Below are positions 35,870 to 44,700 of a DNA stretch of 64,000 nucleotides, one piece after another. The stretch spans positions 372,001-436,000 of the forward strand of contig NZ_ARYH01000001.1 in the NCBI RefSeq assembly GCF_000685235.1, given 5' to 3'. Every line of letters begins with the position of its first letter. Position 1 is the stretch's first letter. The notes beneath the pieces were generated by a model. That model saw only the letters and a list, made by a program, of their open reading frames with translations. It did no database searches and had not been told where the DNA came from. Source of the stretch: Hyphomonas adhaerens MHS-3. GTDB lineage: Bacteria; Pseudomonadota; Alphaproteobacteria; Caulobacterales; Hyphomonadaceae. Made by a program: the position numbers and the translations under genes.

Positions 35870-36070
35870 TTAGAGGCCGTACGGCAGGAACTTTTTCACA
35901 CGGGCTTCATCAGCCTTGGCACCGACGGACGTGCCGCGGTTCTGGCGGATGTATTTCGCGTTGTGGCTGATCAGGCGGTGGCGCTTGCCGGCGACGCCGT
36001 GCTTCAGCTTGCCCGAGGCGGTGATCTTGAAGCGCTTTGCAGCGGCCTTCTTGGTCTTCATCTTCGGCAT
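35870..36070 (-). CDS. rpmI: 50S ribosomal protein L35
   Basis: L35 (bL35), 66 residues, MPKMKTKKAAAKRFKITASGK with the family's C-terminal HNAKYIRQNRGTS element. The start at 36070 has AAGGAG at good spacing. Codons to 36124 would add an unrelated extension. It is followed after 47 bp by rplT. The 270-bp leader upstream (36071-36343) contains the terminator at 36258-36286 and otherwise nothing recognisable. Confidence 0.97.
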   Translation of the reverse strand: MPKMKTKKAAAKRFKITASGKLKHGVAGKRHRLISHNAKYIRQNRGTSVGAKADEARVKKFLPYGL

Positions 36071-36257: not shown

Positions 36258-36286
36258 AAAAGCCGGCAGGGTCCGCCCAGCCGGCT
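36258..36286 (-). terminator. Terminator downstream of the displaced infC 3' end
   Basis: AGCCGGC (36261-36267) and GCCGGCT (36280-36286) form the stem, extended inside by GGG/CCC across one A-A mismatch with a four-base loop. On the minus strand it is followed by TTTTCCC. It sits 58 bp beyond the displaced infC stop at 36344, so it was probably the original infC terminator/attenuator ahead of rpmI. Confidence 0.8.
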
Positions 36287-36343
36287 CTTGAGGGTGTATA
36301 GACGGTGTCTAGAAGGTGTTGATGAGGGTGTGCAGCGCCCCGT

Positions 36344-36411
36344 TCAGCGCGGCGTCAGGACCATCGTCATCTGGCGGCCTTCGAGCTTCAGCTCCGGCTC
36401 GACTTTCGCCA
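36344..36411 (-). pseudogene. Displaced copy of the infC 3' end
   Basis: This stretch reads [21 protein letters not shown] and then a stop, nearly identical to the end of the intact infC product ([21 protein letters not shown]). DNA identity is perfect over 42 bp and then about 80% over a further 22 bp. The sequence upstream of it is unrelated to infC, so it is a remnant, not a gene. It lies next to the terminator expected for infC. Confidence 0.85.
36348..36389. repeat. Direct repeat copy 1 (42 bp, infC 3' end)
   Basis: The 42-bp sequence beginning CGCGGCGTCAGGACC at 36348 is identical to 36819-36860, a spacing of 471 bp. It lies in the displaced infC 3' end. It resembles an attachment-site duplication. 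Confidence 0.9.
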
Positions 36412-36818
36412 GATCGAACCGATCTGGACTGCTGTGACTGGCCCGCACTTTCCGGAACTGGGAAGGTAGCCAATCAGCGTTAGGACGGGCGCATTCGAAT
36501 GGCACAAGTTCTGGCAGATTCCCGAGCCACATCACCGGCTTTCTCGGCGCTGCTAAGGCCATCACCAATGAGAGGCACAAAGTCCCAATATGTGTAGTGT
36601 GGCTTCGATTCTGTTACTGTGCAGCGACAGAATTCCCGTTTGTTGACGGAATCCGGCAGAGGAAGGTCCTGTGCCATACAGATGTTATCCATCTTTCGGT
36701 AAGCCAGTTGTTGGGATACTGCTGCCCATCCCAAAGCGATGATGGCGAGCAGGGCCATGGTTTTGAGGTACCCAAAGCCCCGCTCAATCTCGTTTTCACT
36801 CTCCGGATCCGCCTTCAC
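36390..36818. mobile_element. Small lower-GC insert at the infC 3' end
   Basis: About 430 bp between the two copies of the infC 3' end have visibly lower GC than the neighbourhood, and the segment carries one small membrane-protein gene. Duplication of a host gene's 3' end around inserted DNA is the typical trace of integration into a 3'-terminal attachment site. No integrase remains, so this could be a decayed or very small element; a tandem duplication followed by gene capture is the alternative. Confidence 0.45.
36480..36818 (-). CDS. Small one-TM protein in the infC insert, unknown
   Basis: A 112-residue product starting at GTG 36818 that overlaps the infC stop (GTGA), so translation may be coupled to infC. 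One TM helix at about residues 20-38 ([19 protein letters not shown]) precedes a domain with Cys47, Cys64, Cys66 and Cys105, probably periplasmic with disulfides. No family was recognised. The codon use and base composition differ from neighbouring housekeeping genes, consistent with a foreign origin. Confidence 0.6.
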
Positions 36819-37354
36819 CGCGGCGTCAGGACCATCGTCATCTGGCGGCCTTCGAGCTTCGGCTCCAGCTCCACCTTCGCCATTTCGTCGAAGTCTTCCT
36901 TCACCCGGTTCAGCAATTCCATACCCAGATGCTGGTGCGCCATTTCCCGGCCGCGGAAGCGCAGGGTAACTTTCACCTTGTCGCCCGCTTCGAAAAAGCG
37001 CGTCATCGCCTTCGCTTTGACTTCATAGTCGTGCGTGTCGATGTTCGGACGCATCTTGATTTCTTTGAGCTCGGAATTCTTCTGCTTTTTCTTCGCAGCG
37101 GCTTTCTTCTTCCGCTCTTCGAAACGCAGCTTGCCATAGTCTAGAATCTTGACGACGGGCACTTCCTGGTTCGGCGAAACTTCGACGAGATCCATGCTGG
37201 CTTCACGCGCAGCATCCAGAGCTGCTGCCAGCGGCATCACTCCCTGTTTCTCACCGTGTTCGTCGATCAACAGGACCTTGGCGGCCTTGATGTCGTCATT
37301 GGTGCGCGGTCCCTTTTCCTTCTGGGGCGCTTCATTCATTGGTCTGCGAGCTAT
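36815..37354 (-). CDS. infC: Translation initiation factor IF-3
   Basis: IF-3 keeps 30S subunits free and checks the start codon. The N-terminal domain ([18 protein letters not shown]...[12 protein letters not shown]), basic linker ([14 protein letters not shown]) and C-terminal domain ([16 protein letters not shown]...RFRGREMAH) are all present. The start is probably ATA at 37352-37354, with AAAGGAGA eight bases upstream, giving (M)[10 protein letters not shown], the usual family N-terminus. The ATG at 37339 has no Shine-Dalgarno. Non-standard AUU/AUC/AUA starts are the known basis for IF-3 autoregulation. The 3' end is duplicated downstream. Confidence 0.95.
36819..36860. repeat. Direct repeat copy 2 (42 bp, inside intact infC)
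   Basis: This copy is identical over 42 bp to 36348-36389. It encodes the last residues of the intact infC product. Confidence 0.9.
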
Positions 37355-41951: not shown

Positions 41952-42437
41952 ATGTCCAAATTATTGATCGTTTATCATTCCCGCACGGGTGGCACGCGCC
42001 AGATGGCCGAAGCCGCCTTCGCCGCCGCAAAAGAAGAGGCCGATGCCGTTCTGATGCGCGCGGACGAGGCCATGCCGGAGGACCTGCTGGCCGCCGACGG
42101 ATACCTCTTCGCCGGGCCGGAAAACCTCGCCGCGCTGTCCGGCGCGATGAAGGAATTCTTCGACCGCTGCTATTATCCCGTCCTCGGACAAATCGAGGGC
42201 CGCCCCTATGCGCTGATGATCTGCGCAGGCAGCGACGGAGACAGCGCGGCCCGCCAGGCCGCACGTATTGCAAAGGGCTGGCGCCTGCGCGAGGTGCAGC
42301 CGCCCCTGATCGTCAACACCCGCGCGCAGACCCCGGAAGAGATTCTCGCAGAGAAGACCATCCCGGACGCGGAGCTGGATAAGTGCCGCGAACTCGGCGC
42401 CGCGCTGGGGGCCGGTCTGAAGATGGGCGTCTTCTGA
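41952..42437 (+). CDS. Flavodoxin-like NAD(P)H-dependent FMN protein
   Basis: A 161-residue flavodoxin-fold protein. The FMN phosphate loop YHSRTGGTRQMAEAAF lies at residues 8-23, and the second loop FAGPENLAALSGAMKEFFDRCYY at about 54-76 resembles the WrbA/NADPH-dependent FMN reductase type. GSDGDSAARQAARIAKGWRL is likely part of the flavin/partner surface. In-frame ATGs at 41940 and 41900 are alternative starts. A degraded copy of this gene occurs at 45317-45475. It converges with the downstream TonB receptor gene, leaving a 10-bp gap. Confidence 0.82.
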   Translation: MSKLLIVYHSRTGGTRQMAEAAFAAAKEEADAVLMRADEAMPEDLLAADGYLFAGPENLAALSGAMKEFFDRCYYPVLGQIEGRPYALMICAGSDGDSAARQAARIAKGWRLREVQPPLIVNTRAQTPEEILAEKTIPDAELDKCRELGAALGAGLKMGVF

Positions 42438-42447
42438 GGCCCGCGCC

Positions 42448-44700
42448 TCAGAACGAAACCTCCACCCCCATCAGGAATTCGAACGGCTTGCCGGGCCGGA
42501 GGCCTGCCGGATCGATCGACGCGACATAGACCTCGTCGAACAGGTTCTCGGCCTTGGCCCGCACGCGGATGCGGTCGGTCAGGTCCACCCAGACAGCCAT
42601 GTCGGCCACCCAGCGCGCCTCGATCCGTTCGCGTTCCGGAATGCTGCCCTGCCCGGCGCGCGCGCGCGCATCGGAGACATAGTTGCCGGAGAGGCTCGCG
42701 CCCCAGCGGCCGGTTTCCAGACCGGCGCTCAGCGTCAGCTGCTGGTCGGCGATGTAAGGCAGTTCGTCCCCGGCAGCGACATTGCCCCAGGGCTCATAGT
42801 CGCTCTCGAAGCTCGTCTGGAATTCGGCATCAGTCAGCGTGTAGACGAGGCTCAGCGGAATGGAGAGATCCGTCTCCAGAGCGGAGCCCGCGTCCCAGCT
42901 GGCGGTGACTTCGAGGCCCTGCACATCGACGTCGCCGCCATTGAACTGGTCGCCCACTGCACAGCCGCCGCCGGACGAGGCCGTGCACGTGCCGAGCAGG
43001 TTCGAATAGTCGTTGAAATAGGCAATCGCTTCCAGCTCGAAGCCGCCGCGCGAATAACGCCCGCCGGCTTCCCAGTTGACGCTTTCCTCGACATCGGCGT
43101 CCGTCGTGCCGGGGCTGGCGATCGCGAAGCCGCGATGCACGCCGGCCAGCAGCGTCGTCGTCTCGCTAAGCTCGTAAAGCGCGCTGAGGCCGGGCACGAC
43201 CACCGTATCGGACAACTCCCTTACCCGGCTCGGCCCGGCCGCTCGGGCCGGGTCGCTGGTGGCATAGTCTTCCCGTGTCAGCTTGTAATCCTCGAACCGC
43301 GCGCCGCCGGTGACCGAGAGCCGGCCAATCGTGAACTTGTCCTGCACGAACAGTGCGAGCGCCTCTCCGGAAGAGATGCGGTTCGCCTGGCTGCCGGCTG
43401 CCCCGGCGGCCGTGAGAACCAGCTGCCCGCCGTCGAGGCGATAGGCGTCTTCCTCCTGGAACCGGTCTTCCTCATCCTGGTGGATACGCGCCCCGATGGT
43501 CAGGTCGTGGTCAATGCCGCCAAATGCGGTCTTCCAGTTGAGGACGGACTGGACGCCTTCGCTGTAATAGGCGCGCCGGTTGGCGCGGTAGACGATGGAA
43601 TTGTCGAGGCTGGCGGTGCCCACGGCGAGATCATATTCGGCGGCATAGGTCACCGGATCGGCCAGCACGCTGGAGATGGACACATCCCCGCTCGCCCCGG
43701 TGCCGCCTGAATTGATGCCCTGCAGCTTGTACCAGTTGCGGGCGAAATCGTGATGATAGGCAATCGTCGTCAGGCTGAGGTCCGGCGACAGGTCGATCCG
43801 GTGGGTCAGCTGGAACAGCTCGTTCTCGCCATTGAACTGGTCATCCGTACTCGCATCATAGCGCCGGTAAGGGTCTGCCCGGAAATCGTCCAGCGTCAGG
43901 CCGAGATAGGTCTCGTTCGAGGTCTCTTCCCGCGTCTGGTATTTCAGCTCCACGCTCTGCGGCATGGCCCCGCCGGCCTTGTAGGCGCCGAGCTTCACGA
44001 CAAGATCGTCGGCGTCGAAGCCGGTCGGGCCGCCATTGTCCAGCCGCTTGAAACCGTCCGTCTCGTCGGTGAACACTTCGACGAGCCCGCCCAGCTGCCA
44101 GCCCGCCGCGGCATCCGCCTTGCCGCCCAGCCAGAGGTGCGCACGCTGGCGGTCATTGGTGCCGAACATCACCTGGCCATAGCCCTGCTGGTCATCCGGC
44201 ACGGGCGTGGAGAACATGTTGATCGCCCCGCCCGTGGTGCGCGGGCCGTAGAGGATGGCCGCCGGCCCCTTGGTCACTTCGATGGCGCTCATCCGGGCGA
44301 TGGTCGGGAAGTAATAGGCGGACGGCGAGGCATAAGGCGCCGGCGAGATCGGCACGCCATCCTCCATCAGCGCCACGCGCGAGGAGCGATCGGACCCTGA
44401 GCCCCGCAGGCCGATATTCGGGCGCAGGCCATAGCCATCCTCTTCCTGGATGTTGACGCCCGGCACGGCGCGCAGGATGCGCAGCACGTCGCTCTGCGCC
44501 TGCACCGACAGGTCTGCGTCGGTCAGGAAGGACACCGAGCCCGCCACGTCCTGCGCCGCTTCGGACGATCCTGTGACCACAACAGTCGACAACAGGCGAT
44601 AGCGGTCGTCCCCTTCTGCTGCGTCAGGTGATTCCGCCCCGGCCGAAAGCGCCAGCGCCGCCGCCGACGCCATCAGGAAACTGCTCTTGTTACGGCTCAC
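42448..44700 (-). CDS. TonB-dependent receptor, FecA-like
   Basis: A 750-residue outer-membrane receptor: signal peptide, TonB box region (LSTVVVTGS), plug domain (DVLRILRAVPGVNIQEEDG, then RPNIGLRGS...LMEDGVPIS...YGPRTTGGAINM, about 70-170) and a barrel to the terminal Phe (MGVEVSF). The plug sequence resembles ferric-dicitrate-type (FecA) receptors, so iron chelates are the most likely substrate, but other TonB substrates share this pattern. No FecR/FecI-type regulator genes are adjacent, and the N-terminal signalling extension is absent. It is convergent with the flavodoxin gene, 10 bp apart. Confidence 0.9.
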   Translation of the reverse strand: MSRNKSSFLMASAAALALSAGAESPDAAEGDDRYRLLSTVVVTGSSEAAQDVAGSVSFLTDADLSVQAQSDVLRILRAVPGVNIQEEDGYGLRPNIGLRGSGSDRSSRVALMEDGVPISPAPYASPSAYYFPTIARMSAIEVTKGPAAILYGPRTTGGAINMFSTPVPDDQQGYGQVMFGTNDRQRAHLWLGGKADAAAGWQLGGLVEVFTDETDGFKRLDNGGPTGFDADDLVVKLGAYKAGGAMPQSVELKYQTREETSNETYLGLTLDDFRADPYRRYDASTDDQFNGENELFQLTHRIDLSPDLSLTTIAYHHDFARNWYKLQGINSGGTGASGDVSISSVLADPVTYAAEYDLAVGTASLDNSIVYRANRRAYYSEGVQSVLNWKTAFGGIDHDLTIGARIHQDEEDRFQEEDAYRLDGGQLVLTAAGAAGSQANRISSGEALALFVQDKFTIGRLSVTGGARFEDYKLTREDYATSDPARAAGPSRVRELSDTVVVPGLSALYELSETTTLLAGVHRGFAIASPGTTDADVEESVNWEAGGRYSRGGFELEAIAYFNDYSNLLGTCTASSGGGCAVGDQFNGGDVDVQGLEVTASWDAGSALETDLSIPLSLVYTLTDAEFQTSFESDYEPWGNVAAGDELPYIADQQLTLSAGLETGRWGASLSGNYVSDARARAGQGSIPERERIEARWVADMAVWVDLTDRIRVRAKAENLFDEVYVASIDPAGLRPGKPFEFLMGVEVSF

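Follow-up and report, generated by a model that had tools for sequence, protein, structure and literature searches.

The 3′ end of infC (IF-3) in Hyphomonas adhaerens MHS-3 is present twice, and the two copies enclose a single small gene that starts within the infC stop codon and that close relatives lack at this site. In the window, the whole stretch of 64,000 nucleotides that was analyzed, this arrangement resembles a scar left by recombination more than a mobile element inserted by an integrase. Among the genomes searched, the insert is a single event in the MHS-3 lineage. A homologue of the inserted gene lies directly behind infC in a second member of the genus (G024), where no repeat accompanies it.

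Read in the direction of infC, the order of features is infC, the 112-aa ORF, a spacer, a second infC tail, a terminator-like hairpin and rpmI (Table 1). The last ∼68 bases of infC recur 471 bp away, with 42 consecutive identical positions. When aligned in full, the tails make up a direct repeat of 79 nt with 89% identity and a spacing of 471, of which the first copy consists of the last ∼73 bases of infC. Counting the stop codon, the final 64 bases of the tails differ at five sites. The duplication gave a local alignment score of 111, whereas 30 shuffled versions of the stretch never exceeded 27. The 42-bp identity between 36348–36389 and 36819–36860 given in a preliminary description of this DNA is thus confirmed as part of a longer repeat. 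The same description placed the true infC end upstream and a remnant downstream beside the terminator, which holds on the − strand (from 36815 upward for the former, the displaced tail for the latter); the order of the two tails is reversed in + coordinates.

Table 1. Features of the infC-rpmI region of MHS-3 (positions in the window)
Feature	Position	Strand	Basis or remark
infC (IF-3, 174 aa), intact	36815..37339	−	ORF list; Pfam IF3_N and IF3_C
ORF of the insert, 112 aa, GTG start in the infC stop codon (GTGA)	36480..36818	−	
Spacer of the insert, ORF stop to displaced tail	36412..36479	−	No match in 41 other genus genomes
Perfect hairpin (8-bp arms, 3-nt loop), edge of displaced tail	36409..36427	not assigned	
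Displaced infC 3′ tail, ending CGC TGA	36344..36411	−	Runs into the empty-site sequence of relatives
Terminator-like hairpin	36258..36289	−	Fold
rpmI, next core gene	35870..36070	−	

The terminator-like hairpin gave a fold z-score of −1.87, with an equally good fold in 8 of 200 shuffles, and was not listed by a simple consensus terminator scan. Its sequence is also found 3′ of infC in four relatives (G019, G020, G040 and G039), and in close relatives a terminator-like hairpin lies ∼50 bases past the infC stop codon. Rfam, tRNA and promoter/terminator scans returned nothing useful.

Comparison with related genomes established the state of the site without the insert. infC was found in all 42 genomes of the genus, split across two contigs in one of them (G031). 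In G019, G020, G040 and G039, the sequence that follows the displaced tail in MHS-3 stands directly 3′ of the infC stop codon and is followed by the terminator and rpmI. Accordingly, the preliminary expectation that strains lacking the insert would show a single infC 3′ end with the terminator directly behind it was borne out in close relatives. The analysis also supports a foreign insert at the infC 3′ end and a single displaced tail. The infC-rpmI gap measures 744 bp in MHS-3, 284 bp in G019, G020 and G040 and 273 bp in G039, and spans 261–284 bp in seven close relatives. The excess over G039 (744 − 273 = 471 bp) is exactly the spacing of the repeat. In alignments of up to 12 kb with six relatives, G039 was nearest or tied for nearest in 22 of the 36 250-bp windows between 33000 and 42250 that had G039 data. 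A separate observation concerns the DNA beyond this segment. When positions 42250–44000 were compared with loci L079 and L081, the alignment with G039 and G040 ended at ∼42.3 kb and that with G020 and G019 continued; the region beyond this point is another variable region.

No second infC tail was detected in the infC-rpmI gap of the 41 other genus genomes (scores of 14–29). Four of these (G005, G035, G030 and G029) scored 1–3 points above the best of 30 shuffles and a fifth (G034) equaled it; these near-shuffle scores are taken as chance. In G017, rpmI was not in reach, so the tested stretch was extended to the contig end. A search of the order with the 25-aa tail matched 384 of 398 genomes and returned two matches only in MHS-3 and in G067. 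The second tail of G067 was rejected as a genuine case, being due to two overlapping contig ends that carry the same region. No second genuine duplication of the infC tail was found in the 384 matching genomes, a search that strongly diverged tails could escape. Together with the 41 genus genomes, this is the basis for regarding the insert as a single event.

With regard to composition, the GC content of the insert is 0.52 against ∼0.60 in the surroundings. The lower GC noted in the preliminary description is therefore real, but alone it is a weak sign of foreignness because infC itself falls to 0.51. GC3 is clearer. Its value in the insert ORF is 0.566, compared with 0.81–0.84 in four neighboring genes. 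infC has a value of 0.731 and the homologue in G024 one of 0.625.

As previously described, the insert carries one gene, a single GTG-started ORF. Its predicted product contains a hydrophobic segment, Cys47, a Cys64-x-Cys66 pair and Cys105. The product is probably a membrane protein, given that the hydrophobic stretch falls within a long N-terminal helix of a moderate-confidence structure model (three sequences; all helical, mean pLDDT 73.8, pTM 0.52). No fold in the PDB matched this model at E ≤ 0.001, and no family was assigned in sequence searches of Pfam, PHROGs, NCBIfam and the PDB, in which P0002 gave one match far below the cut-off. Among ∼5.8 billion proteins, two relatives were recovered: P0001, a metagenome protein on a 1182-bp contig that is 91% identical to the ORF product, and P0002, which is nearly identical to the G024 protein. 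Genomes with a match, MHS-3 included, numbered 2 of 42 in the genus, 3 of 105 in the family and 5 of 398 in the order. Weak matches in G043, G177, G266 and G151 were discarded; they contain internal stop codons, and no infC was found in the surrounding stretches that were inspected. The ORF gave no match in phage and plasmid collections at the sensitivity used and has no relatives in viral contigs, which also lack any exact 20-bp piece of the infC tail. A donor sequence for the insert was sought and not found. A sigma-70 consensus scan of the − strand, which cannot prove absence, yielded no promoter for the ORF. The gene probably shares the infC transcript, which would end at the old terminator, and its translation would start by coupling at GTGA; both expression and coupling are predictions.

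The only sound genomic homologue of the ORF, with 22–23% identity, is that of G024. This copy likewise starts in a GTGA overlap directly after infC, and no infC repeat accompanies it. Both proteins share the four cysteines and have, as judged by eye, a hydrophobic segment near the N terminus. Whereas the ORF proteins of MHS-3 and G024 are 23% identical, the infC proteins are 95% identical. Given that the homologue shows the same overlap in the absence of a repeat, infC and the gene seem to move together. In G024, the first ∼120 bases of the gap found in relatives, terminator included, are absent; infC, the ORF and rpmI may therefore be read as a single unit in this genome (L010/L070).

The alleles of the two tails were then compared with those of relatives. 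At positions −58, −55 and −1, six, five and six, respectively, of eight close relatives have the allele found in the displaced copy, which mildly favors the view that the displaced copy represents the resident tail. The intact copy shares its alleles at all three positions with G024. Against this assignment, G039 has the allele of the intact and not of the displaced copy at −55. The base of the displaced copy at −44 occurs in none of the 41 other genomes and that at −50 in six of 41, all of them more distant; these odd bases fit both a remnant freed of selection and a foreign tail. Compared with G019/G020/G040, two mismatches occur in the final 64 bases of the displaced copy and three in those of the intact copy. 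By total mismatch count, G019/G020/G040 and G041 are nearer to the displaced copy, and G039, G011 and G024 to the intact one. No mosaic segment of infC stood out in 250-bp windows.

The insert was probably acquired by homology-anchored insertion, either through a crossover within infC combined with an illegitimate join in the resident tail or through a single crossover of a small circularized fragment. This explanation is favored because the 42-bp identical run is ordinary, because no integrase lies near and because the G024 homologue has no repeat. We infer both the source of the DNA and the order of the crossovers: a fragment of a related chromosome, comprising an infC end, the overlapping small gene and the spacer, would have reached the cell and recombined there, with homology in infC as its anchor. 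The infC tail, present in both copies, is the candidate for homology at one end. The other end of the fragment would have been joined illegitimately inside the resident infC 3′ end and not beyond it. The present infC end, which overlaps the new gene, would be a tail that probably came in with the fragment, and the resident tail and its terminator would have been pushed 471 bp downstream, the tail as a non-coding remnant. In a close variant of this scheme, a single crossover with a small circularized fragment would leave an identical scar. Micro-homology of 3–10 bp often accompanies homology-anchored illegitimate joins. In MHS-3, a perfect hairpin with 8-bp arms spans the join, at the edge of the displaced tail, and hairpins of this type are expected at ∼0.02 per 70 bp in the window. 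No deletion of resident DNA was observed: the empty-site sequence is kept after the displaced tail, apart from small indels that also separate the relatives.

In the part of the study available for Escherichia coli (PMC3240628), incoming DNA homologous at the lacZ end gave a PCR product diagnostic of duplication in 56 of 60 Lac− clones, and the end duplication was confirmed in all 14 Lac− clones sequenced. There, the duplications were attributed to a single crossover of circular molecules short of part of the end, and not to homology-facilitated illegitimate recombination (HFIR). According to the same text, HFIR proper usually gives deletion and not duplication, which counts against an HFIR-type route in the present case. 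For Vibrio cholerae T6SS arrays, the available part of the relevant report (PMC5361080) proposes that displaced gene 3′ ends arose by a homology-anchored illegitimate join. No literature linking natural transformation with Hyphomonas was found.

The preliminary description saw in the locus the pattern of integration at a gene 3′ end (attL/attR-like). In the corresponding site-specific explanation, a tyrosine recombinase, acting in trans or later lost, would have integrated an element with the infC 3′ end in its attP, leaving attL/attR-like repeats and a restored infC. Integrative elements at gene 3′ ends characteristically leave attL/attR direct repeats round foreign DNA, a restored gene and empty sites in relatives, and such a reading requires a shared core and a recombinase. 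The MHS-3 insert resembles these elements in its direct repeat equal to the infC 3′ end, its extreme 3′ location, the 42-bp identity, the intact infC frame, the empty site in relatives and the foreign composition, and four Phage_integrase matches occur elsewhere in the genome. Unlike them, the insert is tiny, has no recombinase beside it and no special core, and its gene has a homologue elsewhere without repeats. A PF00589 search revealed no integrase in or beside the insert; as the description had remarked, no integrase is visible, the nearest match being ∼153 kb away and none lying within ∼150 kb. No re-use of the infC tail as a site was found in the 384 matching genomes of the 398 in the order, and the ORF lacks a match in phages, plasmids, viral contigs and PHROGs and overlaps the infC stop codon. 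In addition, the putative 42-bp core is no better kept than infC tails generally: a run of at least 42 identical positions within the last 90 is shared by 28 of 861 genus pairs, and the longest run identical to the intact tail is 53 bp in G019/G020/G040 and 71 bp in G011. Given that orthologous infC tails have identical runs of this kind in any case, this explanation no longer leads, and with the repeat-free G024 copy and the lack of a second case we now consider it unlikely. The majority alleles at −58 and −55, 5′ of the core, are on the displaced copy, the reverse of what a crossover within the core predicts, an argument that is weak because the closest relative, G039, agrees at one site only. 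A possible phage link was also pursued. Matches to the infC tail at E values up to 10 were obtained in 11 phage and 35 plasmid records (including MT121966, MT835512 and MT837319), and reading frames were analyzed in two of these 46. MT121966 has complete infC, rpmI, rplT and pheS frames in chromosomal order and MT835512 a complete infC frame, and the link was rejected on these grounds. In the available portions of the literature on genomic-island integration sites, infC figures only as a phylogeny marker gene.

The remaining explanations fared less well. An ancestral gene behind infC in the clade, lost several times, with the infC end duplicated locally at a later stage, would account for the homologous ORF at the same place in G024. 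We consider this improbable, given the disparity between ORF and infC protein identities noted above, the 40 of 42 genus genomes that have no ORF match and the empty-site sequence past the displaced stop codon. The flanking direct repeats might also be read as the target-site duplication of an IS relic or a non-autonomous transposon, which is very unlikely. Usual target-site duplications are shorter than the ∼68-base repeat observed here, the 5′ part of which has diverged. None of four inverted-repeat pairs of at least 14 nt lies at the insert ends (a shorter hairpin is present at one end), and the insert is a single copy in the genome, with only three matches of 24–37 bases in the 41 other genus genomes. 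Assemblers can be misled by direct repeats, and an assembly artefact would be conceivable on that account. It is nevertheless barely credible here, in a 2.5-Mb contig with a short repeat whose copies differ at five of the last 64 bases, and with a 91%-identical protein present in a metagenome.

The favored scheme, a homology-anchored insertion, can be set beside known systems. In common with the HFIR and single-crossover gene-end duplications of PMC3240628, the infC case shows a foreign stretch and a partly duplicated gene end, and it would share the one-sided homology. Whereas the cases described in the accessible part of that study are selected laboratory recombinants, the present one is natural and involves an essential gene and a short insert. 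The Vibrio cholerae T6SS effector/immunity arrays, as far as the available text of PMC5361080 describes them, are alike in that a conserved part serves as the anchor for a new 3′ segment and the old 3′ end is displaced as a remnant, and the same likeness applies to the rhs C-terminal displacement named there. In those systems, however, the displaced end encodes the variable effector part; at infC, the encoded C terminus is retained and the sole gain is a downstream gene. With its empty sites in close relatives, the MHS-3 locus would be a clean example of a gene added to an essential operon in one step with no integrase at hand. In the proposed addition, infC homology would serve as the anchor and the stop codon as the new start, with the old terminator staying in place. 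Direct repeats at gene 3′ ends are, by themselves, no evidence of att sites.

The infC-rpmI gap ranges from 188 to 2593 bp in 41 of the 42 genus genomes and was not measurable in G017. A gene of at least 112 aa starts in the infC stop codon in 11 of the 42; two of these belong to the family of the insert ORF (GTGA overlap) and nine are lipoprotein-like (ATGA overlap). Given these small overlapping genes, the infC end is repeatedly occupied by accessory genes. The gap-cargo listing took the longest ORFs first, which hid some infC-overlapping genes (in G005 and G008); the value of 11 of 42 comes from the overlap count. A more speculative and rather doubtful extension is that the infC 3′ end could serve as a docking place in the genus, at which unrelated genes for small envelope proteins are repeatedly coupled translationally to an essential translation factor. 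In that case, the displaced tail would record a single docking event, and the insert might even represent a minimal cassette mobilized by a recombinase acting in trans. Further gap cargo tested (L035, L039 and other gaps) included a Peptidase_S10 protein and an HWE histidine kinase. The nine lipoprotein-like genes are at L036, L037, L038, L040, L041, L044, L046, L053 and L067, in genomes G002, G003, G005, G007, G008, G014, G018, G029 and G031, and the one protein tested among them matched the Pfam peptidase-inhibitor family Inhibitor_I78.
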